Positions 2,001 through 62,948 of a stretch of 64,000 nucleotides of DNA are shown piece by piece. The notes under the pieces were generated by a model. That model had not been told where the DNA came from and ran no database searches. It saw nothing but the letters and a program-made list of their open reading frames with translations. The translations under genes were made by a program, and so were the position numbers. Source of the DNA: Rhizobium jaguaris (GTDB lineage: Bacteria > Pseudomonadota > Alphaproteobacteria > Rhizobiales > Rhizobiaceae); NCBI RefSeq assembly GCF_003627755.1, contig NZ_CP032696.1:310001-374000 (forward strand), written 5' to 3'. Every line of letters starts with the position of its first letter. Position 1 is the first letter of the stretch.

Positions 2001-3638
2001 ATGCAGCACGAAAAATCGGTAGTCAGTTCGACGACGTTGGCGCCTCTCGAAAACAGAATATTTCGATCGCTCTGCTTAGCCACACAAATCTCCAGTATCG
2101 GTTGGCTCGTCCAGACCACGGCCGTCAGTTGGTTGATGGCGACGATTTCCACTTCCGATTTGATGGTCGCACTTGTTCAGGCTTCCTCAACACTCCCCTC
2201 GTTCTTTCTATCAATCTTCGCTGGAGCCCTCACCGACAGTTTCAGCCGACGTTGGGTGATGCTAGCCGGCCATTTCTTGATCGCAATGGCATCCATCACA
2301 CTAGCGTTTTCGGTGGCGATAGGCTTCGTTAGTCCATGGTTACTACTTGGATTGGGGTTTTTAGCAGGTTGCGGTTTCACCTTGAACGATCCAGCGTGGC
2401 ACGCCTCGGTCGGCGATATTCTTGAGAAACGCGATATTCCAGCCGCAGTGACGCTGCTGTCGATTGGCTACAACACTGCGCGCAGCGTTGGGCCGGCTTT
2501 AGGTGGTATCATCCTGGCTTATTTCGGGCCGCTTGCCGCGTTTGCATTGGCAGCGCTGAGCCACCTAGCTCCCTTGAACGCAGTCTGGCGTGGCAAATGG
2601 CAAGTTCGCCAGCCACCACTTCCGCGTGAACGGATCATAACAGCAATTCACGACGGCATGCGGTTTACGGCGATGTCTTCGGAAATCGGAGCGGCGACTG
2701 TGCGTGCAACGATTTTCGGGATGTCAAGCATATCTATCCTCGCCCTGCTGCCCATCGTCGTCAGGGACCAACTGGCGGGCGGACCGGTGGTTTATGGCAT
2801 CTTGCTGGCCGGCTTCGGTGCAGGCGCGTTCATTGCCGGTATGAGCAACAGCATCCTGAGGCGCATGATGCCACAAGAACGACTGATCATGCTCGGATCT
2901 CTCAGCTGCGCCGCATGTTGCCTCACGATCGCATTCGCTCCGTCGGTAATAGTCGCGGCGGTTGCGCTGGCAGTTGCGGGCGCGGGATGGGTTATAACAT
3001 GGACGGGGATCGACGTGGCTGTGCAGATGGCAAGTCCCAGATGGGTCGTTGGGCGAACCCTATCTATCTACTATACATTTACCTACGGCGGCATTGCAGT
3101 CGGCAGTTGGGTTTGGGGCGCTGTTGCGCAGAACTACTCATTGACGTGGGCCCTGGTCAGCTGCGCGGTAGTTTTGTTGCTTGTTGCCGCAGTCGGGAGA
3201 GTGTTGCCCATATTGCCTTGGGAAGAGCAAGAGCAAGAGGACTTTGAGTTCACGCCACCCACTTTAGCGCTCGACGTGACGCCGAGGAGCGGTCCCATTG
3301 TCGTCAAAGTGGAATATTCTATTCCGGAAGGGAGCGTTGACGACTTTCTTGGACTTATGCGCGAAAGGCGTAGAGTCCAGAGCAGGGCTGGAGCCCGGAG
3401 TTGGACGCTCCAGCGGAACCTCCAGTTCCCTTCGCTATGGACGGAGACGTTCCGGACGCCGACCTGGCTGGATTTCTTACGCCTCAACCATCGGCTTACG
3501 GCGAATGACAAGGAAATAGGCGCACGATTGATGCGATTGCATTCAGCAGATCGTCCACCTGAAACGACATTTTCGATAGAGCGACCGGCAGGCGCGTCCC
3601 GTAAGTCAGATCAGAACCCCTATTTGTCTCGCCTCTAA
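2001..3638 (+). CDS. MFS_3-type (EntS-like) exporter with C-terminal extension
   Basis: Integral membrane transporter of the major facilitator superfamily. About 410 residues carry the hydrophobic segments; the loop sequence DSFSRR near residue 87 is the expected MFS motif A region, and [12 protein letters not shown] in the first half is typical of the EntS/MFS_3 family (siderophore and antibiotic exporters). A soluble tail of about 130 residues follows (charged linker EEQEQED, then a monooxygenase-like alpha/beta region), as in full-length MFS_3 proteins of about 520-550 residues. GAGG lies about 9 nt before ATG 2001. Two close paralogues occur at the other end of the window (61284-62948 and from 63299). 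The cargo is unknown; export of a small metabolite is inferred from family. Confidence 0.88.
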
Positions 3639-22621: not shown

Positions 22622-23704
22622 ATGTACGACTTCATTATCGTGGGTGGCGGGTCATCTGGAACCGTTTTGGCCAACAGACTTTCGGCCGATGCCAGCAAGC
22701 GCGTCCTCCTGGTCGAGGCGGGAGCTGACTTTCCGCCAGATTCCGTCCCTGACGACATTCTTGACGGTAACCCAACGAGAGCTTACTTCAATCCCCGCTA
22801 CCAATGGAAAGATTTCGACGCAACCATGGAGCAAGGCCACCGTGCTGCCGAGCATTACGAGCAGGCGAGAGTAATTAGTGGAGGCTCCAGTATCAATGCG
22901 CAAGTGGCTAACAGGGGTGCGCCGGCCGATTATGACGAATGGTCAGCGAGCGGAGCGACCGGCTGGGATTGGGAATCCGTGTTACCCTTCTTCCGCCGTC
23001 TGGAAAGCGATCTTGATTTCGACGACGAGTACCATGGCCAGGACGGCCCGCTGCCGATTCAGCGCATAAAGCGGAGCGATTGGACCGGCTATATCAAAGC
23101 CGTCTCTGAGGCCTACCTTAGAAAGGGCATTCCCTTCGTGTCCGATTTCAACGGTGAATTCATGAACGGCCACTCAGTCGTTCCGCTGACAAGCCGAAAT
23201 GGGCAGCGTGTTTCTGCGGCCATGGGTTACCTGACATCGGCCGTAAGGGCGCGTCATAATCTTCGAATATTGGCTGACACGACGGTCACCAAGCTTACTT
23301 CCGTCGACGGGGCAATCACCGGCATTGGAACGGAGAACAAAGAGGGCCGCGTGACTTACGAGGGCGCCAACGTCGCGCTTAGCGCAAGCGCACTACATCC
23401 GCCTGCGCTCGGGTCCCTCTATTTCTGGGTCAATCGTTCATATTCAACGGGATCGGTGCGGCTGAAGGGCCCGTCGCACCTCATAGGACCGGACGTGCAG
23501 TTCAATATGCTTAGTGACGAGCGCGATTTCGATAGATTGAAGTCGGCCTTCTGCTTCATCTCGCGTTTATTGTTTGATTCAAATCTGTCCTCCGTAGCCA
23601 TTGCCCCTTTCCCAACAGCTTGGACCGGGCGTGCCAAGCAGATCAGTAGGTACAGCCGCCTGAACTACGAGCTAACCGGTATCGTTGCCGCTCCTATGGA
23701 CTCA
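22622..23704 (+). pseudogene. GMC oxidoreductase, internally deleted and cut by IS630 (paralogue of 54242-55927)
   Basis: FAD-dependent alcohol/choline oxidase-type protein. The start MYDFIIVGGGSSG (FAD dinucleotide motif), DDILDGNPTRAYFNPRYQW and GGSSINAQVANRG match the intact paralogue at 54242 closely. About 95 residues present in the paralogue are missing here between SASALHPP and LGSLYFWVN without loss of frame, and the C-terminal 140 or so residues with the catalytic His/Asn are gone: at 23704 the IS630 element begins (inserted at a TA). The lost 3' end was not found on the other side of the insertion, so the insertion was accompanied or followed by a deletion. Non-functional. Confidence 0.88.
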
Positions 23705-23720
23705 TACGGCCTCTCATTGA

Positions 23721-24284
23721 TTAAAACCCATTTGCCCATTCTCGCCCGATGGACATGATGCGCCAAGGCTGGCTTTCGATCTTTCGCCATGCGTCGCAGC
23801 AATGGGCGGCGATGTCGTCATAGGATTTGAAGACACGGTTGGAGAGCCAGTTCTCTCGCATGAAGAGCCAGAGGTTTTCGACCGGGTTCAGCTCTGGCGA
23901 TTTCGGCGGGAGCGGTAGGATCGTTATGTTTTCGGGCACGACGAGGTTGTTGGACATGTGCCAGCCCGCCTGATCCATGATGAGGATGGCGTGGGCGTCT
24001 TCGGCAACATGGCGGGCGATTTCGGCCAGATGCTGGGTCATGGCGTGTGTGTCGCACCACGGCATGACGAGAGCGGCTGCCTTGCCATGCTTCGGGGCAG
24101 ATCGCTCCGAAGATGTAGGCCGATCTCGTGCGCTGATCGTGCGGCGCTGAAGGTCGCGTTCCGCGTCTGGCCCAGCGGCGCGTGATCTTGTTCTTCTGGC
24201 CGATGCGAGCCTCGTCCTGGAACCAGATCTCTATTCTTTTGCTTTTGGCGGTTCCGGCGGCAATTTCCGCCACTGCGGCAGGGA
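23721..24284 (-). pseudogene. IS630-family transposase, C-terminal half, copy 1
   Basis: Reads NFPAAVAEIAAG, IEIWFQDEARIGQKNK (first catalytic Asp), then in the next frame MPWCDTHAMTQH, AILIMDQAGWH (second Asp) and LPPKSPELNPVENLW (final catalytic Glu). The frame break is at a CCCC run (24094-24097 on the plus strand); three C would give ICPKHGKAA and one continuous protein. The same four-C run is in copy 2. Copy 1 lacks a C near the end (MSIGREWANGF against MSIGRRMGKWV), so its last residues differ. Confidence 0.82.
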
Positions 24285-43877: not shown

Positions 43878-44210
43878 GATATCCTCCTTCACCACAGTTA
43901 ACGTTCGAGATTCCAGCTCCCCGGGAGAGCGGGGTCCATACCATTGGCGCCCGCGGATCAAGAGTTTGTTTTCAGCGATGGAAAGATCGTTGGTGCGGTC
44001 AGGTCTACGGCTTGTTGCAGCGGCACACTGACCGCTGGCCCTGATGGTGTCCACTGATTCTTTGCTACCTGCGGCACAGTCGCGGTTCACGGGCAGGCCG
44101 ACTTTGCGGGCATGAGCAGGTTGGTCAACTACCATATGCCGTAGTATCGGTGCTTCCCCGGTAAGTCTACAAACCGTGTACATTCATCGCAATAAATAGG
44201 ATGCATTGGC
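43878..44210 (-). other. Putative IS110 left-end noncoding region (candidate bridge-RNA locus)
   Basis: Upstream of the intact IS110 transposase there is no gene for about 330 bp. Known IS110-group elements transcribe a structured guide RNA from this place. I could not fold it reliably or locate the element's end. CGCTGGCCCTGATGGTGTCC at about 44032 resembles CGCTGGCCCTGATGAAGTCC at about 50750, which may be a related relic. Confidence 0.35.
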
Positions 44211-44975
44211 ATGCAGAGTAATGTGACGACGCTGAAGGTTTCCAAATACATCTGTGCTGCAGACGAGCTGGGGCGCACATCCGGTCTCCATATCGCGATG
44301 GGCGACGATTTCGAGGAGTATGTGCAGATTACGAGCAAACTTCCTGGAAAGTCACCGACGTATCCAAGCTTCCGCCCTGACTGTTCAGATCTTCCGCCTG
44401 GGAAGGCTTTTTGGATTATCGGGCGGGATCGAGAAGGGAGAGTAGCGCATGTCCAGGCACTGCGTTTAGACGATCTGTGCGACACGGACCTTGCAGAGCA
44501 CCTCGGATCGCTCAGAGCCTGGTTTGCGGATGCTAACCTCAGTGCCGGACCCGATACCTCGTCTCAGTGCAATGCACCGAGTGCGCGTAGCATAACCGGG
44601 CGGGTTGCGTATCAGGGTGACATCTGGCTGCGGAAGGACTTTAGAGGCCGCGGTCTCTCTACCTTTATCGGTCGCATTGCATTTGGACTGGCATGGGCTA
44701 AATGGTCGCCGGATTTCATTTATGCGCTGGTCGCCGGCTGGCACATCGAAAAAGGAATTGTCGATCGCTACGGCTATCTGCATCGAGAGCCGCACGGATC
44801 AATACTACACTTGCCTGCTCATGGAATAGACGACGCCGATTGGCTCGTTTGGCTAACGCGAGACGAACTGTTGACCACACTTTCGTGCACGTCGGTATGG
44901 CAGGCGCTGGACGAGAGTACTTTGGCGGCAGCGGACTCGCCCAAGAAGGGACAGCGCCGCACGACGCTCACTTAA
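44211..44975 (+). CDS. GNAT-like N-acyltransferase family protein
   Basis: 254 residues. The middle part (GDIWLRKDFRGRGLSTFIGR) has the acetyl-CoA pyrophosphate loop R-x2-G-x-G/L (RGRG at 145-148) flanked by the usual strand and helix, and FIYALVAGWHIEKGIVDRYG matches the following strand-helix of GNAT enzymes. The N-terminal 100 residues are unlike common GNATs. It is not a LuxI-type synthase: the conserved Arg/Phe/Trp pattern of those is absent. ATG 44211 follows AGGA by about 7 nt. It lies between IS110 and IS3 and could belong with the biosynthetic genes further right. Substrate unknown. Confidence 0.6.
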   Translation: MQSNVTTLKVSKYICAADELGRTSGLHIAMGDDFEEYVQITSKLPGKSPTYPSFRPDCSDLPPGKAFWIIGRDREGRVAHVQALRLDDLCDTDLAEHLGSLRAWFADANLSAGPDTSSQCNAPSARSITGRVAYQGDIWLRKDFRGRGLSTFIGRIAFGLAWAKWSPDFIYALVAGWHIEKGIVDRYGYLHREPHGSILHLPAHGIDDADWLVWLTRDELLTTLSCTSVWQALDESTLAAADSPKKGQRRTTLT

Positions 44976-46498: not shown

Positions 46499-47177
46499 AG
46501 TGCACCAACTACCTCGTCAATGCTGGATACGCTTCAAACAAAACATGAAATGCTCTAGTCTAGCTTGGCGCCAATCGGCCAGCTATGGGTATCGCGGAAT
46601 TTTGAGTACCGCAGCGTTTCGGCCTATTTGCGTTAGATATGCCATATCCCGTGCATCTTAGCTGCTGGTACGGCGGCTACACCGCGCGTTTTTCACAACC
46701 GACCGGATTACCCGGTGATAGAAACCGCTAAAGCCATTTCAGCAGCTTCCGGTAGGACGCACCTTGCATTGGAATACGCGGCAACCTGCCAAAAGCGCGT
46801 TAGATGCACGCGGATGCGGGGGCTCCTTGTTTGACTCTTTCTCGAAGTACAGTTGCGTCGATTGCGGGACTTTGATGCAATTTTCATATATCGACCTATT
46901 TATTGAATGCAAGCTACAATAACAATTCAGAATCTAAGCTTTAGTTTCTTCCGGCAGAAACCTCTATAACGATGGCGAAGCATAAATTTAAGTCAAAATT
47001 AATACCAGCGGTTACCATGATATGGTAGAGCATTAACGATGCCGGTCTGCCGGGGATGGCGAGCGTAGCTTTTGCAGTCGGCATCTCTGTTTGCCAGTGC
47101 AAACCGCTGCGGAGCAGAGAGGCTCCGCAACTCCCGATGATGACTGCTCTCTGTCAACTTGGAGGCTGGCAACGATA
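46499..47177. other. AT-rich intergenic region upstream of luxR-type gene
   Basis: About 0.7 kb without a gene. The second half (46850-47030) is strikingly AT-rich against its surroundings and probably contains the promoter of the LuxR gene. It includes the palindrome at 47013-47027. The first 60 bp may be a relic of an interrupted gene, not identified. Confidence 0.4.
47013..47027. promoter_or_regulatory. Palindrome TACCAT-GAT-ATGGTA
   Basis: Perfect 6-bp inverted repeat with a 3-nt spacer, about 150 bp upstream of the LuxR-type start, in the AT-rich region. Shorter than a classical 18-20 bp lux/tra box; a candidate operator for the LuxR protein or another regulator. Confidence 0.3.
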
Positions 47178-47963
47178 GTGTCAGACAAGTTTTGCTTTGT
47201 CCCGTCGATGCATTTCACGCCGGCTGCCGCGCAGGCGTTCGCAGTCGAGTTCGGCCGATTTCTCGACCAGACTGTTGACGTTGCGCAAACCGAGCAGTTG
47301 TTCGATGCGTTGTGTGCATTTGCTCTGAATTTTGACTGCCCATGGGTGGCGTATGAACATCTTACATCCGATCAAAGAGTTCTGACGCCGGTCCGACGCG
47401 AGCGAGCCGCCATGCTCAACTATCCTGATCAATGGCAGGCGCATTATTTCAAAATGGGTTATGACAAAATAGACCCGATCAACAGGACGTGTCGAAAGCG
47501 CGCAGATGCCTTTCGATGGAGTGAGGTCTATAACGACGGGCTCACGACCGAAGATGAACGGCGCGTTTTTGATGAAGCCGCGACATTCGGTTTAAGGTCA
47601 GGCATTAGCATTCCATTGCACGGTCCCAAAGGCAGCTTTGCAGTCACGAGCTTTGCACAGGGCGGCGAATTCCAAAATAGAACAGTCACTTATTTGCAAC
47701 TTGCCGCGCTTCATTTTCATCTTAGGGCGGCGAGGTTGGTGAATTCCAGTGGTATGGAGGAGATTGCTGACCTTTCTCCAAGAGAGAAAGAGTGCATCTT
47801 GTGGACGGCAAGAGGGAAGTCGTCGTGGGAAATAGGAAGGATTCTGGGCATATCCCTAAACACTGCCAATTTTCACATAAAAAACGCAATGCGCAAATTG
47901 GATGTCACCAGTAGAACAGCCGCTGCGATAAAAGCCGTGAACTTCGGAATTATCGATTTGTAG
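47178..47963 (+). CDS. LuxR-family regulator with autoinducer-binding domain (LuxR solo)
   Basis: 261 residues: an N-terminal autoinducer-binding domain with the usual signature residues in CPWVAYEHLT, WQAHYFKMGYDKIDPI (Trp, Tyr, Asp-Pro) and FRWSE, then GLRSGISIPLHGPKGSFAV, and a C-terminal LuxR helix-turn-helix (LSPREKECILWTARGKSSWE, ISLNTANFHIKNAMRKLDV). It should bind an acyl-homoserine lactone or related ligand and activate or repress nearby promoters. No luxI-type gene lies in the window, so it responds to a signal made elsewhere. GTG 47178 is chosen (GGAGG 12 nt upstream); ATG 47208 is an alternative. Convergent with the aminotransferase-oxygenase fusion gene. Confidence 0.88.
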   Translation: MSDKFCFVPSMHFTPAAAQAFAVEFGRFLDQTVDVAQTEQLFDALCAFALNFDCPWVAYEHLTSDQRVLTPVRRERAAMLNYPDQWQAHYFKMGYDKIDPINRTCRKRADAFRWSEVYNDGLTTEDERRVFDEAATFGLRSGISIPLHGPKGSFAVTSFAQGGEFQNRTVTYLQLAALHFHLRAARLVNSSGMEEIADLSPREKECILWTARGKSSWEIGRILGISLNTANFHIKNAMRKLDVTSRTAAAIKAVNFGIIDL

Positions 47964-48169: not shown

Positions 48170-50260
48170 TCAGGTCCACCATAAAACTAGATCGGGTCGC
48201 GCAAAGCCGAAAAAGCTGTTCAGCACGAGTCGAGATTCTTCACCGTCTGATTTACGCGTGACGCCGTGAATGAAGCCGCCGTCGATCAGCGCGATATCCC
48301 CGGCCCTGAGCTCCAAATCTTGGCAGGGAACGGTTTCGAGGTAGGTTGCCGAATAGGGATAACCCGTGGTCTCCACACCCTGTTGCTTTCGATCGGCCGC
48401 CGTCGGCTTGTGGCCCCACATACGCAAATCGCCACCTTCCTTTGCCATGCTGGGGTAGAAGTTGAGCGCCACAACTGTGTTCGCCGCCACCGCCGAAGGC
48501 TCGAAATCGCCTCCTGCACATAGGACTTGAGCAACATCATCGTGAGGCGCCAAAGCATACGGGCCACTACCACACCAGCTGATAGCGCGACAAATATTAG
48601 CCTGGCCTTGCTCCGACTGGGCGAGCCGCAGCTCAATGCCTTGATGCTGAAGGTCGCGCTTCAATGCGTCGAATATTCCGCGAACTGGATCGACGAGATC
48701 GCCAAAAAGCAGGTCAATGAACGGTCGCGCATCTTCCGAGTCTGCGAAATAGTTGACCGCAGCCTTTTTGTAATGAGATGCGCCAACATACTGTCCGGGA
48801 ACTCCATCTCTGCGGTCCTTCAGACCGGGACTGCGACTGAAGTTCTGAGTGATCTCCTCGGCTACTTCGTCACTAAACGCGTTCTTGACATGCAGACCGG
48901 TGATCTCGCCTTTGAGGACTGAGATGATGTCCGACGTGTTGATTAAGCCTACGCGTTCTCTGATCGTAAGGGGGGAGATGGCCGAGGCGTGAGACACATG
49001 GTTAATCGTCATAGGCTGCTCCTGTAGTGCGTGATCGAGGATTCTGATGCCATGATCGAGTTCGTCATCGGCAATGGTTATCGGTGGAAGGACTTTGATA
49101 ACGTCACGGTTCGGGCCTGACGCTTCGATCAACAGGCCATTTTCGAAAGCGACGTCATGCACACGGGTAACAATGGCCTGTGATCGGCATTTGAGACCTG
49201 CCATCAGACCGCGGCCGCGCTTCTGTTCGATGCACTTTGGGAATTTCTCAACGAGTCGATCAAGGTGTCCTTGCAGTTTAACGGCTGTCCGCTCGACGCC
49301 TGCAGTAAACTGCCCGTCGGACCACATTTTACACATGGCGCCCGCAGTCACGAAGGCGAGGTTGTTGCCTCTGAAAGTCCCGCTATGTTCGCCGGGCTTC
49401 CATACGTCTATCTCGGGGCGAATCAGCACAATTGAGAACGGATTTCCTGAACCACTTAGGGATTTCGAAAGGCACACGATATCGGGTTCAATTTTCGCGA
49501 ACTCAAATGAAAAGAAATCGCCGGTTCGTCCCGCACCTGCCTGAATGTCGTCGACAATGAAAACAACGTCGTGTTTACGGCAAATTCGCTGAATTTCTGA
49601 TAGCCACTCAGCGGATGCGGTATTCATGCCGCCTTCTGCCTGAATGGTCTCTAGAATGATTGCGGCGGGCTTCTCTACACCGCTGCCTGGATCACCCAAA
49701 ACGGATTCGATGTAACCGACGGAATCGTAAGTTTGGTTAGGGTAGCTGTCGTACGGGACGCGGATTACGTCATGACGCGCCACGCCGCCAAGCTCCTTAG
49801 TCGAGGCCGAACCCGACACTGCCAAGGCGCCGAGCGACATGCCATGGAACGCGTTCGTGAACGCCATGACACTCGAACGGCCGGTATATTTGCGCGCAAG
49901 CGCCAACGCCGCTTCATTGGCACTAGTGCCCGTAGGGCCCGGAAATTGTATCTTATAAGACAAGCCTCGTGGCTTCAGGATTGAATTGACAAACACTTCA
50001 ATGAAGTCGCGCTTTGCCGCTGTATACATATCAAGCGACAAAAGGATATTTTTGCCAGCAATATATTCGACTGCTGGGCCAAGAATATCCGGGTTGTTAT
50101 GTCCGTAGTTAAGTGCGCCAGATCCTACGAGGAAATCGATATAGGGCTTGCCGGTCTCATCCCATATTGTCGCGCCAGTAGCTTTCGTGAAGACTGTGGG
50201 AAACGACCTTCCATAGCGGCAAACGTTAGACTCATGAGCCGCGAAAGCGTCGGTGTTCAT
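48170..50260 (-). CDS. Fusion: class III aminotransferase (EctB-like) + Fe(II)/2-oxoglutarate oxygenase
   Basis: 696 residues in two enzyme domains. Residues 1-415 are a class III PLP aminotransferase: GALNYGHNNP, GPTGTSANEAALALARKYTG, AFTNAFHGMSLGAL, VDDIQAGAGRTG (D237) and CLSKSLSGSGNP with the PLP lysine K266; the pattern is closest to diaminobutyrate:2-oxoglutarate transaminases (EctB). After a linker (about 416-475) residues 476-696 have the double-stranded beta-helix metal triad of 2-oxoglutarate oxygenases: PHDD (H573, D575), GGFIHGVTRK (H665) and R677 for 2-oxoglutarate. Aminotransferases of this kind consume or release 2-oxoglutarate, so the two steps could be coupled: amination, then hydroxylation of the product. 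AGAGGA precedes ATG 50260. No neighbour is co-transcribed. Confidence 0.88.
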   Translation of the reverse strand: MNTDAFAAHESNVCRYGRSFPTVFTKATGATIWDETGKPYIDFLVGSGALNYGHNNPDILGPAVEYIAGKNILLSLDMYTAAKRDFIEVFVNSILKPRGLSYKIQFPGPTGTSANEAALALARKYTGRSSVMAFTNAFHGMSLGALAVSGSASTKELGGVARHDVIRVPYDSYPNQTYDSVGYIESVLGDPGSGVEKPAAIILETIQAEGGMNTASAEWLSEIQRICRKHDVVFIVDDIQAGAGRTGDFFSFEFAKIEPDIVCLSKSLSGSGNPFSIVLIRPEIDVWKPGEHSGTFRGNNLAFVTAGAMCKMWSDGQFTAGVERTAVKLQGHLDRLVEKFPKCIEQKRGRGLMAGLKCRSQAIVTRVHDVAFENGLLIEASGPNRDVIKVLPPITIADDELDHGIRILDHALQEQPMTINHVSHASAISPLTIRERVGLINTSDIISVLKGEITGLHVKNAFSDEVAEEITQNFSRSPGLKDRRDGVPGQYVGASHYKKAAVNYFADSEDARPFIDLLFGDLVDPVRGIFDALKRDLQHQGIELRLAQSEQGQANICRAISWCGSGPYALAPHDDVAQVLCAGGDFEPSAVAANTVVALNFYPSMAKEGGDLRMWGHKPTAADRKQQGVETTGYPYSATYLETVPCQDLELRAGDIALIDGGFIHGVTRKSDGEESRLVLNSFFGFARPDLVLWWT

Positions 50261-50919
50261 TTTGGGATCCTCTCTACACGCGGGCGTCGCACCGACAAAG
50301 TAAGCGAGCGAGTAACGAACTCGATTCGCTAGAGATGTCAGTGAAGATGAGAACTATTCGAACCGGAACACGAGTGGCGGTGACTTTCTCGACGTCTGCC
50401 GGTACTTTCAGGGTGGTCGGCCATCGTAACGCGGAAGCGCGACTGCCAATTGCCACGCCACTCGTCTGCCGAACAGATATGCAGGCTACTCTGCATGTCC
50501 ACACCTTCTAGTTGGTACGCTCGAACAACCTAATTTCTATAGTTCCCGGGCAAGCACAGATACTACGAGATCTGATAGTTGACGCATCCGCCACGCCCGC
50601 GAAAGGGGTTGGCATTCTGGGAAGCACTACTTTGGCAGATTAACCGCCCTTGAATTGAAGGGGTGGACGGCCCCGCTTGGCAAGGGACAATTTAGTGTTT
50701 CCGGCGGATTGGTCGGGTGCAGGCATGTATTCGGCCTTTCGTCGCGGCCTATTCATGCCGCTGGCCCTGATGAAGTCCGCTGATCGGATCCCAGACAGGT
50801 CAACGCGCTTTTTAAGCGACACCCACTGAGCGAGTTTGTCCGATCCCGGCTCGACCGTCCGTCATCACACCATCAGCACCTCACCAACCTTTGCACTCCG
50901 CGGCCGTATCAGGCGGCAA
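50261..50919. other. Intergenic region upstream of the fusion gene, with IS relic
   Basis: The first 250 bp should contain the promoter of the minus-strand fusion gene. The part from about 50640 (CGCTGGCCCTGATGAAGTCC at about 50750) looks like mobile-element debris related to the IS110 upstream region at about 44032, and it ends exactly where the IS630 fragment begins. No intact gene. Confidence 0.35.
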
Positions 50920-51944: not shown

Positions 51945-52379
51945 ATGTCCACTTCAAAAACTGTGGCAAACGCAGGACGGGAGATGGCCAAGAAGGTTCG
52001 ACCATCCCGCGTTTACCGCCCTATCGAAGGCAATGTCGACCTTAATTGGCCACTATCCAGACACCCCACAGTGAACTATGACACCAACGTCCGTTACGGC
52101 GCCTCCACTTTCGGCCACCTCTGGTCGGATCGGCTGCGCGGCTGGCTCGCATCATGTATAGCGGACTTGTCATCGCAAACACTCGCAAGAACTACCTGGA
52201 AGCCACATCCTTTGAGGGGGAAATGCGGCGCCTACAGGACGCGGGCGCCGATGTGCGGGCATGCCGATGTGCGGGCATATTGTCCGGACGAGAGCGGATA
52301 CATCACGGAACAGGGTGCCGACCGCCAAGTCGTTCAGGAACGTCACAATACCAAAGCACCAACGGAGGAGCTACTATGA
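51945..52379 (+). CDS. Hypothetical protein preceding the oxygenase gene
   Basis: ATG 51945 follows AAGGAAG and opens MSTSKTVANAGREMAKKVRP, then YRPIEGNVDLNWPLSRHPTV and NVRYGASTFGHLWSDRLRGW. 144 residues, no family recognised. From about 52150 a different frame contains protein-like sequence (YSGLVIANTRKNYLEATSFE, GEMRRLQDAGADVRAC), so the gene may be frameshifted or two relics may overlap. Its stop overlaps the start of the oxygenase gene at 52376, hence coupled translation. Confidence 0.45.
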   Translation: MSTSKTVANAGREMAKKVRPSRVYRPIEGNVDLNWPLSRHPTVNYDTNVRYGASTFGHLWSDRLRGWLASCIADLSSQTLARTTWKPHPLRGKCGAYRTRAPMCGHADVRAYCPDESGYITEQGADRQVVQERHNTKAPTEELL

Positions 52380-53308
52380 GTACGCTACCGCAAATCTCAC
52401 TGGCGAAACTGACAGCCGATGCAACGCGACGTGAAGAGCGACAGCGCTTGCAGATGGCTTGCGAGGAGTATGGGTTCTTCTACCTTATCGAGCACGGCAC
52501 CCCTAGGGAACAGATTGCACAAGCCATCGAGGCTTCCCGGCGGTTCTTCGCGTTGCCACAGTCGATCAAAGAACGCTACGGTCACGCCTCCCAAGAGGTT
52601 TATCCCACTACCGCGCGTGGATACAGTCCGTTGCACGGCGAAATGCTACATCCCGAGGCGGGCGCCGATTCAAAGGAACTGTTCGACCTCGGAATTGAAA
52701 ACGCAGGCGACCGACGTCCATTTGCGGGGCGCACGCACTTTCCAGATGATGCTGTGGCTCCTGGTTTCGCGCAAAGTCTGCTTACTTTGCAGGCGACCAT
52801 GCTCACCGCGGTTGTGCCGCAACTTGGGAATGCGCTTGCCGACCTGCTCAATTTGGAACAGGGCTGGTTCCGGCGCCATTTCAGCCCTCCGACGGTCCTG
52901 CAACGCGTGATCCGGTATCCATCTAGCGGCGGCGCTTGCGCCAAACACACCGACAATGGCTTCTTCACGCTACTGCCGCAGGAGGAACTGCCCACGCGCT
53001 CCTTGCAGGTGTGGTTCGGCGGGCGCTGGGTCCCAGTGCCGAGCCTGCCCGACGGTTTCGTAGTTAATCTGGGTGACATGCTTCAGGCCCTGAGCGACAA
53101 TCGCTTTCAGAGTACGCCGCATCAAGTCGTGCACAGTGGTCCGACTGACCGAATTTCGCTCCCCTTCTTTATCTATCCTGACATCGACGCTCGCCTGACT
53201 TCGCAGAAAAGGCAGCACACCTTCAGTGTTGCAGAAATGATGCTGCGGAACTACGAGTCAATCTGGGAACGCGGGACTGGCGCTGGACGCGCACTGGAGT
53301 TGCAGTGA
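52376..53308 (+). CDS. Isopenicillin-N-synthase-like Fe(II)/2-oxoglutarate-dependent oxygenase
   Basis: Non-heme iron oxygenase, 310 residues from ATG 52376 after a strong ACGGAGGAG. N-terminal DIOX_N region (CEEYGFFYLIEHG) and C-terminal double-stranded beta helix with the iron triad HTD (H191, D193) and H249 (STPHQVV), and the 2-oxoglutarate/substrate-binding R-x-S motif (R259, S261 in DRISLPFF). Family members hydroxylate, desaturate or cyclise small acids and peptides (IPNS, gibberellin oxidases, ethylene-forming enzyme). It lies near a second 2-oxoglutarate oxygenase domain (48170-50260) and may act on the same product. The start overlaps the previous ORF by 4 nt. Confidence 0.9.
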   Translation: MSTLPQISLAKLTADATRREERQRLQMACEEYGFFYLIEHGTPREQIAQAIEASRRFFALPQSIKERYGHASQEVYPTTARGYSPLHGEMLHPEAGADSKELFDLGIENAGDRRPFAGRTHFPDDAVAPGFAQSLLTLQATMLTAVVPQLGNALADLLNLEQGWFRRHFSPPTVLQRVIRYPSSGGACAKHTDNGFFTLLPQEELPTRSLQVWFGGRWVPVPSLPDGFVVNLGDMLQALSDNRFQSTPHQVVHSGPTDRISLPFFIYPDIDARLTSQKRQHTFSVAEMMLRNYESIWERGTGAGRALELQ

Positions 53309-53774: not shown

Positions 53775-54194
53775 ATGTGCCTGAGCCATGACCTCAACTA
53801 TGCATTGCAGACAACCCAGAATTGGATCAGCGATCTGATGTGGAGACTTCGCTGGGACGATCGCGAGCGAGTCTACCAAGCCCTTATCGCGACGTTGCAC
53901 GCTCTGCGCGACTGCCTGGATGGCGACGAGCCTGTTTACATAGGCGCCCAGTTGCCGCCCTTACTGCGCGGGTTTTACTACGAGGGCTGGCATCACGGTC
54001 GCCGTACCATAGCCAGAAACCGGAAATCGTTTCTCGACCGGGTGCACGACGGGGTCCAGCGAGATCCGGCGGTGGATCCGGAAGAGGTTGCTCGCTCGGT
54101 CCTAGCTCAATTGGCGGACCGTTTGCCTACAGCAGAGCTCGAGGATGCCAAGGCCGCCACTCCAAGAGTGCTGTATAGCCTTTGGCCAAACTGA
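53775..54194 (+). CDS. DUF2267 domain protein
   Basis: 139 residues from ATG 53775 (GGAG 7 nt upstream). Pattern of the DUF2267 family: LQTTQNWISDLMWRLRWDDR, VYQALIATLHALRDCLDGDE, AQLPPLLRGFYYEGWHHG, FLDRVHDGV and the final VLYSLWPN. These small helical proteins occur widely in rhizobia and their biochemical role is not established. It ends 47 bp before the GMC start used here, so the two are probably co-transcribed. Confidence 0.8.
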   Translation: MCLSHDLNYALQTTQNWISDLMWRLRWDDRERVYQALIATLHALRDCLDGDEPVYIGAQLPPLLRGFYYEGWHHGRRTIARNRKSFLDRVHDGVQRDPAVDPEEVARSVLAQLADRLPTAELEDAKAATPRVLYSLWPN

Positions 54195-54241
54195 AACAGC
54201 CGATGTTGTCCTTGTCGCGGTATACGGAGGGAGGGTTGCCT

Positions 54242-55927
54242 TTGGTCTTTGACTATATCGTCGTCGGTGGTGGTTCCGCTGGATGCGTCATGGCGAACAG
54301 GCTCTCCGGCAAAGCAAATCGCGTTCTACTCATCGAAGCCGGCCCTGATACGCCCCCGAACGCCATCCCTGATGACATCCTCGACGGCAATCCAACACGT
54401 GCCTACTTCAATCCTAATTATCAGTGGCCGTCACTCGACGCTGTGGCGGTACGGGATGGACGCAAGCCCATTCACTATGAGCAAGCCCGAGTGATGGGCG
54501 GCGGCTCCAGCATCAATGCCCAAGTGGCCAATCGAGGCGGTCCCGAAGACTACGATGGATGGGCATCAAGCGGTGCAACCGGGTGGGGCTGGGAGGACGT
54601 TCTACCTTATTTCCGTCGGCTCGAACGCGATTTGGATTTCGACGACGAATTTCATGGCAAGCATGGCCCCCTGACGATAAGTCGTGTTCGACAACGGGAT
54701 TGGTCCGGCTTTATCCGAGCGGTAGCGAAGGCATATGAAGATGTAGGTATCCATTTCAGGCCGGACTTCAACGGCCCATTTGGTGACGGGTACTCCGTTG
54801 TTCCGTTGACCAACCGCAACGGCCACCGTGTTTCTGCCGCGATGGCTTACTTGTCCGAGAGCGTCCGCTCTCGACCGAATTTGAGAATATTGTCGGAAAC
54901 GACGGTTGTGCGACTAAACTTTTCAGGACGCGCCATAACCGGCATTGAGACGGAAAGCAATTCCGGGCGGCAGTCATATCGCGCTTCGACCGTGATCCTC
55001 TGCGCCGGGGCCATCCATTCGCCCGCCATATTGATGCGCTCCGGGGTTGGCCCGGCCGAGCAAATGACAAAGCTCCACATTCCAGTTGTTGCAGAGGTGA
55101 ACGGTGTGGGGCAGAACCTCCAGGAACATCCGGGGATCGCCGTTTCGGCATATTTGAAGCTGAGCGACCGCATGGAGCCCAAGGTGAGTGGTCACATCCA
55201 GATGCATGCTCGTTACTCGTCTGGCTATGATGGGTGCCCTTCTACGGATATGGCAATATCGGCCGTTGCCAAGTCGGCTTGGCACCCGCTCGGTAAGCGC
55301 CTCGGCTCCCTTTATTTGTGGGTCAATCGCAGTTATTCGACAGGAACCATCGTGCTCAGGGATCGCTGTCACACCATAGAACCGGAGGTGGATTTCAACT
55401 GGTTGAGCGACCAGCGAGACGCCGAGCGATTGAAGCAGGGGTTCCGTTTCATGGCCCGCCTGCTGAAGCAAGATTCACTGTCGGCCGTGGCACACGATCC
55501 GTTCCCGTCAGCTTGGAACACGCGAGCGAAGCAAGTCAGTAAGGTCAATTGCATCAATTACGGGCTAACCTCGGTGCTCGCGCTGCTCATGGACAGCTCT
55601 CCGCACGTGCGCCGCGGTCTTATTAGGCACGTCATAACCGATGGTCATTGCATTTCAGATCTGATTAGCAACGAGGAGCTTCTGGATCGGTTTGTCCGCC
55701 AAAACGTGACCGGCAATTGGCATCCGACGTCGAGCTGCAGGATGGGGGCAATCTCGGATCCTGCCGCTGTGACCGACCCATCGGGGCGTATTCGGGGCGT
55801 TGAGGGGTTGAGAATCGCCGACGCTTCAGTGATGCCATTCTGCCCCCGCGCCAACACAAATATTCCGACCATCATGGTAGCTGAGAAGATGGCTGACGCG
55901 ATCTTGAGAGAGGACCGAAATAGCTAG
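54242..55927 (+). CDS. GMC oxidoreductase (choline dehydrogenase/alcohol oxidase family)
   Basis: FAD-dependent alcohol oxidase/dehydrogenase, 561 residues from TTG 54242: FAD-binding FDYIVVGGGSAGCVMANRL, DDILDGNPTRAYFNPNYQW, second signature GGGSSINAQVANRGGPEDYD, ILCAGAIHSPAILMRSGVGP, and the C-terminal catalytic region NWHPTSSCRMG (His about 494) and PRANTNIPTIMVAEKMAD (Asn about 540). The start is a choice between TTG 54242 (GAGGG 6 nt upstream; matches the paralogue start MYDFIIVGGG) and ATG 54203. Full length, in contrast to the damaged paralogue at 22622-23704. It may oxidise an alcohol in the pathway of the neighbouring oxygenases. Confidence 0.92.
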   Translation: MVFDYIVVGGGSAGCVMANRLSGKANRVLLIEAGPDTPPNAIPDDILDGNPTRAYFNPNYQWPSLDAVAVRDGRKPIHYEQARVMGGGSSINAQVANRGGPEDYDGWASSGATGWGWEDVLPYFRRLERDLDFDDEFHGKHGPLTISRVRQRDWSGFIRAVAKAYEDVGIHFRPDFNGPFGDGYSVVPLTNRNGHRVSAAMAYLSESVRSRPNLRILSETTVVRLNFSGRAITGIETESNSGRQSYRASTVILCAGAIHSPAILMRSGVGPAEQMTKLHIPVVAEVNGVGQNLQEHPGIAVSAYLKLSDRMEPKVSGHIQMHARYSSGYDGCPSTDMAISAVAKSAWHPLGKRLGSLYLWVNRSYSTGTIVLRDRCHTIEPEVDFNWLSDQRDAERLKQGFRFMARLLKQDSLSAVAHDPFPSAWNTRAKQVSKVNCINYGLTSVLALLMDSSPHVRRGLIRHVITDGHCISDLISNEELLDRFVRQNVTGNWHPTSSCRMGAISDPAAVTDPSGRIRGVEGLRIADASVMPFCPRANTNIPTIMVAEKMADAILREDRNS

Positions 55928-61283: not shown

Positions 61284-62948
61284 ATGCAAAGCTCAGAGCC
61301 ACCAAGAATGCAGATCGAAGACGTTTCCGTTCGCGGGCCCACAACACTCGATTCGCTGCGCAACGTGGCCTTCCGCTCGATCTGGAGCTCCACGCAGGTG
61401 GCGAACCTCGGATGGTTGGTGCAAACCGTCGCCATCAGTTGGCTCATGGCGACGATCTCCGCTTCGGATCTGATGGTCGCGCTTGTTCAGGCCTCAACGA
61501 CGTTGCCGGCCTTCATCCTTTCCATTCCTGCCGGAGCGATAGCCGATACCTTCAGCCGCCGGTCGGTAATGATCACCGGCTTGTCATTGATTGCGCTGGC
61601 GTCGATTGTCCTGGCGCTCGCCGCTGCCTTCGGCTTCGTCAGCCCCTGGCTCATCCTTGGACTGGGCTTTATGGCGGGTTGCGGATTTGCGCTGAACGAT
61701 CCAGCCTGGCACGCCTCCGTCGGCGATATCCTGGACAAGCGCGATATCCCGGCCGCGGTGACGCTCATGTCGGTCGGTTACAACATGACCCGCAGCATCG
61801 GTCCGGCGCTCGGCGGAGCGCTCCTCGCTTTCCTCGGTCCATTGACGGCCTTCCTTTTTGCCGCGTGCAGCAATCTTGCGCCCCTAGGCGCGGTGTTACG
61901 CAACAAGTGGTACGTCCGCTCGTCTCCTCTGCCTCCGGAGCGGATTTCGACTGCCATTCATGACGGCATGCGCTTTACGGCGCTTTCCTCCGGTATCCGG
62001 GCGGCAATCATACGTGCAACGCTCTTTGGCCTTTCGGCCATTGCCCTCCTTGCCCTTCTGCCGCTCATAGCCCGCGATCAACTGGCCGGCGGGCCGATCG
62101 TCTACGGCGTTCTGTTCGCCGGTTTCGGAACCGGCGCATGCTTCGCCGGCATGAACAATCAGCGTTTGAGGAAGCTGGTTCCTCAGGAGTGGTTGATGGC
62201 GATCGCCTCGGTTGCCCGCGCGCTCTGCTGCATCTCCGTCGCGATGACGTCATCGGTCACCGTGGCAGCGCTCTGCCTTGCGCTTGGCGGTGCCGGCTGG
62301 GTCATCACCTGGACCGGGTTCGACGTCTGGGTGCAGTTGGCCAGCCCACGCTGGGTCGTCGGGCGTACGCTCTCGATCTACTATGCGTTCCTGTCGGGCG
62401 GGATGGCTGCGGGCAGCTGGCTCTGGGGCACCGTCGCCCAGACCTATTCGCTTGCATCTTCTCTCGAACTTGCGGCAGCGGCTCTGTTACTCGTCGCCGC
62501 ATCAGGGTTCGTACTGGCGGTGCATCTGGCGGCAGAGGGAGACCAGCAGGGCTCGGTATATCCGGCGCCAGCGGTGGCGCTTGATCTGAAGCCGAAGCGG
62601 CCCAATTGCAGCGAGGACGGAATAGCCATAGACGACGGCGACCTGGACGTCTTCCTCGATCATATGCGCACTCGCAGATACGCCTTGGCCCGGGCAGGCG
62701 CGCGCGACTGGACGCTCCAGCGAAATCTCCGAAAGCCCTCCCGGTGGACGGAAACGTTCCGCATGCCGACCTGGATGGATTTCCTACGTCTGCATCATCG
62801 CCTTTCTCCATCGGATCAGGACGTCATCCAGCATCTCGCCGCTTTGCATATGAGTGACAAGCCTCCGGAAACAGATCTTGTGATTGAGCGCACAACAGAC
62901 GCACGCCGGAGCCGGAGCCAGCCGGTCACGCGTATGTCGCGTCCTTGA
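61284..62948 (+). CDS. MFS_3-type (EntS-like) exporter with C-terminal extension, second copy
   Basis: 554 residues, close paralogue of 2001-3638: [28 protein letters not shown] (MFS motif A region), [36 protein letters not shown] and a soluble tail (RTRRYALARAGARDWTLQRN, TFRMPTWMDFLRLHHRLS). GC-richer than the first copy. No clear ribosome-binding site at ATG 61284; ATG 61308 (MQIEDVSV) is an alternative. Followed after 12 bp by a small gene and then the third copy, all on one strand, so probably one operon. Cargo unknown. Confidence 0.88.
   Translation: MQSSEPPRMQIEDVSVRGPTTLDSLRNVAFRSIWSSTQVANLGWLVQTVAISWLMATISASDLMVALVQASTTLPAFILSIPAGAIADTFSRRSVMITGLSLIALASIVLALAAAFGFVSPWLILGLGFMAGCGFALNDPAWHASVGDILDKRDIPAAVTLMSVGYNMTRSIGPALGGALLAFLGPLTAFLFAACSNLAPLGAVLRNKWYVRSSPLPPERISTAIHDGMRFTALSSGIRAAIIRATLFGLSAIALLALLPLIARDQLAGGPIVYGVLFAGFGTGACFAGMNNQRLRKLVPQEWLMAIASVARALCCISVAMTSSVTVAALCLALGGAGWVITWTGFDVWVQLASPRWVVGRTLSIYYAFLSGGMAAGSWLWGTVAQTYSLASSLELAAAALLLVAASGFVLAVHLAAEGDQQGSVYPAPAVALDLKPKRPNCSEDGIAIDDGDLDVFLDHMRTRRYALARAGARDWTLQRNLRKPSRWTETFRMPTWMDFLRLHHRLSPSDQDVIQHLAALHMSDKPPETDLVIERTTDARRSRSQPVTRMSRP

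Follow-up and report, generated by a model that had tools for sequence, protein, structure and literature searches.

Background

EctB-type enzymes make L-2,4-diaminobutyrate, releasing 2-oxoglutarate, and the ectoine hydroxylase EctD, an Fe(II)/2-oxoglutarate enzyme, is tied to the EctB pathway. Here we analyzed an open frame in which an EctB-type transaminase runs into an Fe(II)/2-oxoglutarate oxygenase, at positions 48170..50260 of a 64,000-nucleotide stretch of Rhizobium jaguaris NZ_CP032696.1; this whole stretch is called the window below. Judged by described enzyme type, its ectB part resembles two symbiosis-related diaminobutyrate transaminases. For Dat (C189) of Rhizobium leguminosarum UPM791, diaminobutyrate transaminase activity was shown with cell extracts and with purified protein, in a paper that contains none of the words oxygenase, hydroxylase and LuxR (PMC10228743). 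For msi260, a putative diaminobutyrate transaminase of Mesorhizobium loti R7A, strong nodule expression and none in a nifA2 mutant were described (PMC3538637).

The HilA/HilB operon of Pantoea ananatis is a second point of comparison. According to its description, HilA hydroxylates free L-isoleucine, HilB belongs to PF10014, translational coupling of HilA and HilB is reported for some bacteria, and some HilA/HilB operons carry putative amino-acid ligase and exporter genes (PMC3684760).

The junction between ectB and the oxygenase gene

Our analysis makes it likely that the frame consists of two adjacent, overlapping genes merged through a one-base loss, and that the functional unit is a two-gene operon whose products make an amino acid and hydroxylate it. 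The basis for this is the junction comparison, the domain identities, the conserved catalytic residues, the overlap of the genes, purifying selection and partial conservation of a promoter box; translational coupling, the substrate, the product (hydroxylated diaminobutyrate) and the regulator are what we infer.

The frame is uninterrupted from ATG to stop and encodes 696 residues, as the sequence-only reading had it, and it lies on the minus strand, which that reading had not given. Residues are numbered below in this 696-residue frame. It runs on through both domains because the DNA at the junction is 1 base shorter than in relatives, a difference that is not visible from the window sequence alone. 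The closest records are plasmids of S. meliloti LMB1 and Sinorhizobium sp. CCBAU 05631, each with two separately annotated genes that share 11 bases; in alignment with both, the base was missing from the window immediately before the oxygenase start. The oxygenase ATG is kept, with AGGAG a few bases 5' of it, and the stop in the old ectB frame is still present at the position of the relatives' stop. With one base missing and the old stop, start and ribosome site intact, the event looks like a very young deletion or a sequencing error.

The relatives compared came from plasmids on record, from GTDB species genomes and from further whole genomes. None of the 24 relative loci with both genes detected (L017, L018, L028-L042, L044, L045, L047-L051) was fused, although near-identical genomes of the Mesorhizobium type are among them, and the 24 cannot be counted as independent events. 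In 23 of them the frame of the oxygenase differs from that of ectB, with 7-128 bases shared between the oxygenase start and the ectB end; the last one (L031) has a broken ectB and, between the two genes, a stop. L029 was retained in the count although its ectB is split into two frames. Left out were the window's own extracts (L001, L019), duplicate extracts (L009-L011, L014-L016, L020-L022) and single-gene loci (L002-L008, L012, L013, L023, L043, L046, L052); two Streptomyces loci (L056, L057) stand outside the count, and four loci with weak oxygenase matches (L024-L027) gave no hit in the junction comparison.

When the oxygenase part was compared with 2533 catalogued proteins of fusion length (383-1218 residues), none matched at E <= 0.001, so that, within the sensitivity of this search, neither these nor the relative loci showed the fusion in a second independent genome. 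The oxygenase of this very genome is listed in the protein catalogue separately, as a 280-residue protein (P0121, 100% identical) encoded on a contig of exactly 550,563 bases. The sequence-only reading had proposed a new family of single-chain EctB-oxygenase enzymes and had suggested a search for homologues sharing the fusion. What was found is the outcome that it had itself set against the proposal, homologues divided at the linker, with stop and start at the same position. We rejected a fusion family on the 0/24 fused loci, the absence of a fusion-length match in the catalogue and the single-domain length of both sets of homologues. Its idea that an amino acid is made and then hydroxylated survives in the form of a two-gene operon; the single chain does not. 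Aligned jointly with both halves, the fused protein showed only 12-27% identity to the oxygenase rows, and this alignment was not used.

A genuine, recently evolved bifunctional enzyme confined to this strain, with both active sites working in one chain, is unlikely. It would fit a frame that is open across both domains, with the named catalytic residues intact and purifying selection on both halves against five relatives. However, the fusion was seen in this sequence only, the retained old stop, internal start and ribosome site make the event look very young, the measured selection would mostly be older than the base loss, and the public catalogue calls the oxygenase as a separate protein.

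That the base is absent purely through a sequencing or assembly error, the strain having the ordinary two genes, is a serious possibility, if somewhat short of an even one. It is a sub-case of the explanation by base loss preferred here, and its probability overlaps with that of the latter. The loss concerns one base in a single assembly, the old stop survives and 0/24 relative loci share the loss, all of which speaks for such an error; the quality of the 8.03-Mb genome (4 contigs, completeness 100%, contamination 4.48) speaks against it, as do other degraded frames recognized by eye on the same plasmid, which make true decay plausible. One chimeric frame on this replicon (L059:143-1408 (-), G000:C3) passes from the start of a short-chain dehydrogenase into a pyruvate dehydrogenase E1-alpha-like part, by eye probably through a deletion.

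Table 1. Positions of the joined genes, promoter-like sites and other features in the window
Feature	Position	Strand	Evidence or remark
EctB-type diaminobutyrate--2-oxoglutarate transaminase half, fused residues 1-416	49013..50260	-	TIGR02407; pyridoxal phosphate (PLP) lysine K266
WelO5/HilA-fold Fe(II)/2-oxoglutarate oxygenase, 280 residues, HxD...H...R site	48170..49012	-	own ATG at 49012
Junction, 1 base shorter than in relatives	48995..49030	-	alignment; AGGAG ribosome site, ATG and old-frame ectB stop kept
LuxR-type regulator, autoinducer-binding domain and GerE	47091..47963	+	PF03472 107.6 bits, PF00196 63.7 bits
Lux-box-like 18-bp dyad ACTATCAGATCTCGTAGT	50562..50579	-	7/9 pairs symmetrical; begins 319 bp upstream of ectB
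Second dyad copy ACTACCATATGCCGTAGT	44128..44145	+	same dyad and flank, ahead of the frame at 44211..44975
Open reading frame, 254 residues	44211..44975	+	no Pfam or NCBIfam match; GNAT-like RGRGLS stretch by eye
GMC oxidoreductase copy, much shorter	22622-23758	+	apparently internally deleted
GMC oxidoreductase copy, intact	54182-55927	+	recurs near the pair in L018 and L049
2-oxoglutarate oxygenase gene	52154-53308		recurs near the pair in L018 and L049
MFS_3-type transporter gene	2001-3638	+	PF05977, 666 bits
MFS_3-type transporter gene	61284-62948	+	by eye

The EctB-type transaminase

The assignment of the first half as an EctB-like aminotransferase holds. Pfam Aminotran_3 covered residues 19-412 (259 bits), and the EctB equivalog TIGR02407 scored 627.6 bits against a curated cut-off of 552.2, with residues 5-414 matching positions 2-412 of the profile, that is, the full domain. 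The PLP site had been placed correctly at K266, which lies in the motif LSKSLSG and provides the catalytic lysine; a lysine stands there in 120/120 EctB homologues among the matches listed, which are 414-477 residues long. Its sequence kin in the PDB (6rl5, 9s1q, 9s1p) are each named diaminobutyrate-2-oxoglutarate transaminase. With EctB (TIGR02407; PDB 6rl5) it thus shares a score above the cut-off, a full-length match, the catalytic lysine and the same predicted reaction. The ratio of nonsynonymous to synonymous substitution rates (dN/dS) of the ectB half was 0.06-0.09 against five relatives. Among the matches listed, the closest named proteins, for EctB as for the oxygenase, bore Ensifer or Sinorhizobium names.

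Two further EctB-type genes, 46-47% identical to the ectB analyzed here, were seen on the same replicon (G000:C3:266875-268128 and 295840-297072 (-)), the former near genes that by eye are nifDKEN-like and acdS-like.

This ectB differs from those of ectoine pathways in having an oxygenase gene as partner, with no EctC alongside. A role of the pair in an ectoine- or hydroxyectoine-type osmolyte pathway, the oxygenase replacing EctD, is very improbable. The EctB score over the equivalog cut-off would suit such a pathway, and ehuB is annotated near the pair in L018. The own genome also yielded two weak EctA-like matches, but these (47.7 and 25.2 bits) remained below the cut-off of 120.6, leaving no EctA over cut-off, and equally weak matches below the cut-off occurred in 7/14 control genomes. 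A lone EctC-like gene over cut-off (G000:C3:51964) lies at a distance of about 306 kb on the contig, and was the only one found in the genome by a search that had no positive control. The oxygenase, moreover, is of the WelO5/HilA family, and EctD was absent among its Pfam and NCBIfam matches, which sets it apart from the ectoine hydroxylase. Because EctA was not over cut-off and EctC was distant, the ectoine pathway was rejected.

The oxygenase and its active site

The second half matched Pfam WelO5 (PF22814) over residues 444-687 with 42.5 bits (cut-off 27), and a comparison of its AlphaFold model showed the WelO5 fold over almost the whole chain at about 13% identity; by match and by fold it belongs to this family, and the assignment as an Fe(II)/2-oxoglutarate oxygenase was borne out. 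The search for oxygenases found 227 proteins, and residues were counted in the 120 listed, which are 257-280 residues long and carry rhizobial names or none. H573, D575 and R677 were invariant in all 120 and H665 was present in 119. All four residues, which are 157, 159, 249 and 261 in oxygenase numbering, were invariant in 24/24 aligned rows, including two Streptomyces proteins at 27-28% identity. They had been named correctly from the sequence, and their positions give the HxD...H triad and the arginine for 2-oxoglutarate of an Fe(II)/2-oxoglutarate hydroxylase. The oxygenase dN/dS was 0.19-0.21 against the same number of relatives as for ectB.

In carrier-free halogenases glycine (or alanine) replaces the iron-binding aspartate. 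The oxygenase shares the fold of the WelO5-type members of that class (PF22814) but has HxD where these halogenases have HxG, and a WelO5 entry with the substitution G166D (5iqu) was present among the fold matches. Neither glycine nor alanine was found at this position, as aspartate stood there in 120/120 homologues among the matches listed and in 24/24 aligned rows. A WelO5-like halogenase that yields a chlorinated amino acid was rejected because HxD is invariant in the 120 homologues listed, and we regard it as having hardly any likelihood.

NCBIfam NF041274, the L-isoleucine dioxygenase HilA, matched with 86.7 bits (residues 41-280 on profile positions 46-285). As the cut-off is 500, the oxygenase is kin to HilA and not a member. 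HilA is a related hydroxylase of free amino acids; its substrate is L-isoleucine and its coupled partner another hydroxylase, whereas the oxygenase gene here overlaps that of an EctB-type transaminase.

Distribution and neighbourhood of the pair

As two genes, the pair is probably real and used, to judge from comparative sequence evidence. It occurs in Sinorhizobium, Mesorhizobium and Bradyrhizobium, and on several rhizobial plasmids. The contig of the window (550,563 bases) carries genes that by eye are nifDKEN-like and was therefore taken as a rhizobial symbiosis replicon. The distribution is patchy: in the whole-genome samples, both genes were found at E <= 1e-125 in 3/198 other genomes of the family, and oxygenase matches in 8/396 other genomes of the order, four of them only weak (25-28 bits). 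The overlapping stop and start at the junctions suggest that translation of the pair is coupled.

Neighbouring genes were compared in 27 loci, a set that also holds two paralogue loci and short contigs. An ATP-grasp protein lies near some rhizobial pairs (similarity cluster in 7/27 loci), and the one in L017 has the L-amino acid ligase C-terminal domain PF18603. A radical SAM/SPASM-type protein is encoded upstream of ectB in 8/27 loci (L032, L033, L036, L040, L042, L044, L049, L050; similarity cluster); in L033 and L044 Pfam SPASM was over cut-off and Radical_SAM just below. It was rejected as a partner, giving no match in the own genome in a search without a positive control. Ligase-like, radical SAM and transporter genes stand near some rhizobial pairs; of the HilA operons, some include a putative amino-acid ligase gene and exporter genes. 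A carbamoyltransferase gene adjoins a distant oxygenase relative in S. tendae and in L052, which would fit, if thinly, a hydroxyl group introduced to be modified further.

A more distant genome (L051, G241:C1:1096500-1116000) has the pair at 62% and 46% identity. The cluster around it looks siderophore-like: it encodes a lysine/ornithine monooxygenase, a methyltransferase, a further 2-oxoglutarate oxygenase (PF10014) and a protein resembling methionyl-tRNA synthetase, and genes that by eye are TonB-receptor-like and LysE-like (exporter) were also seen there. In the window itself we noted two GMC oxidoreductase copies and similar MFS_3-type transporter genes at both ends (Table 1).

Among the papers listed, no description of the EctB/oxygenase pair was found, most subscription journals lying outside the search, and none was found under wording for hydroxylated diaminobutyrate. 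The name y4qG stands on the EctB homologue P0021; y4qG and y4qH are presumably NGR234 genes, and searches under these names gave apparently only chance string matches. WelO5 together with rhizobium returned only a biocatalysis review.

Regulation

The LuxR-type gene is convergent with the pair, and its similarity cluster was found in 14/27 loci, the window included. Upstream of ectB lies the lux-box-like dyad ACTATCAGATCTCGTAGT, and about 20 bases downstream of this dyad comes a -10-like ACTATAG. A dyad and a -10 element at such spacing are the layout of a lux-type promoter. In the form found in L044, with <=4 mismatches allowed, the dyad was present in 11/22 upstream regions against a mean of 0.02/22 after single-base shuffling, a contrast that is generous because the pattern was chosen by eye from three of the same 22 regions and the 11 include near-identical genomes. 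Three matches to acyl-homoserine lactone synthase exceeded the cut-off in the genome, two of them on the contig of the window. Taken from the sequence, activation of the operon by the LuxR-type regulator encoded beside it, via the lux-box-like site, is probable.

A second copy, ACTACCATATGCCGTAGT, precedes another open reading frame in the window, and the sequence that follows the ectB dyad on its 3' side resembles, by eye, a remnant of the start of that frame. A NifA/RpoN promoter for the pair was rejected, as the strict sigma-54 pattern occurred in 0/22 and the loose one in 3/22 upstream regions; the NifA-site pattern occurred in 3/22 (L036, L040, L042).

Proposed pathway

In the two-gene explanation preferred here, a single base would have been lost at the ectB/oxygenase overlap, by recent mutation or sequencing error, joining the frames in this sequence. 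The transaminase would convert aspartate semialdehyde and glutamate to L-2,4-diaminobutyrate, and the 2-oxoglutarate released would be consumed by a WelO5/HilA-fold hydroxylase of free amino acids acting next, most likely on L-2,4-diaminobutyrate. Diaminobutyrate is suggested as the substrate of the coupled hydroxylase because EctB makes it along with 2-oxoglutarate and because HilA hydroxylates a free amino acid, L-isoleucine. The LuxR-type regulator would switch on the operon through the lux-box-like site. In this strain a separate oxygenase could still start from its own ATG and ribosome site, and since these are kept, the merged frame need not abolish it.

Several observations weigh against parts of this proposal. 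Recent mutation and sequencing error are indistinguishable from one assembly. The HilA score is so far under the 500-bit equivalog cut-off that kinship with HilA does not fix the substrate; PF22814 carries a halogenase's name; the oxygenase sequence gave no match in the PDB up to E 10, and its alignment gave only weak ones there, the best (E 0.022) to the halogenase Wi-WelO15 (6gem). A distant relative (L052) has the oxygenase without a detected ectB alongside, and two Streptomyces relatives sit in stretches containing nonribosomal peptide synthetases, so the oxygenase fold is not tied to diaminobutyrate everywhere. The dyad was missing in 11/22 upstream regions, namely those of six Bradyrhizobium loci and of L017, L045, L047, L048 and L051. 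Inactivation of msi260 left symbiosis fully effective, with no symbiotic defect (PMC3538637).

Conclusions

The analysis keeps a one-base artefact or mutation from being recorded as a new enzyme architecture. The fusion itself is of little interest; what is worth keeping is a conserved, uncharacterised EctB/oxygenase pair of nitrogen-fixing bacteria. Tentatively, and with more doubt than confidence, we suggest that the symbiosis regions of Sinorhizobium, Mesorhizobium and Bradyrhizobium hold an undescribed pathway, in at least some of them under LuxR-type control, in which diaminobutyrate is made and at once hydroxylated. A new hydroxylated diamino acid would result, which might be joined into a dipeptide and exported to serve in the nodule or rhizosphere as a signal or antimetabolite. 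If this chemistry is true, the pair would give enzymatic access to hydroxylated diaminobutyrate and link it to possible LuxR control.
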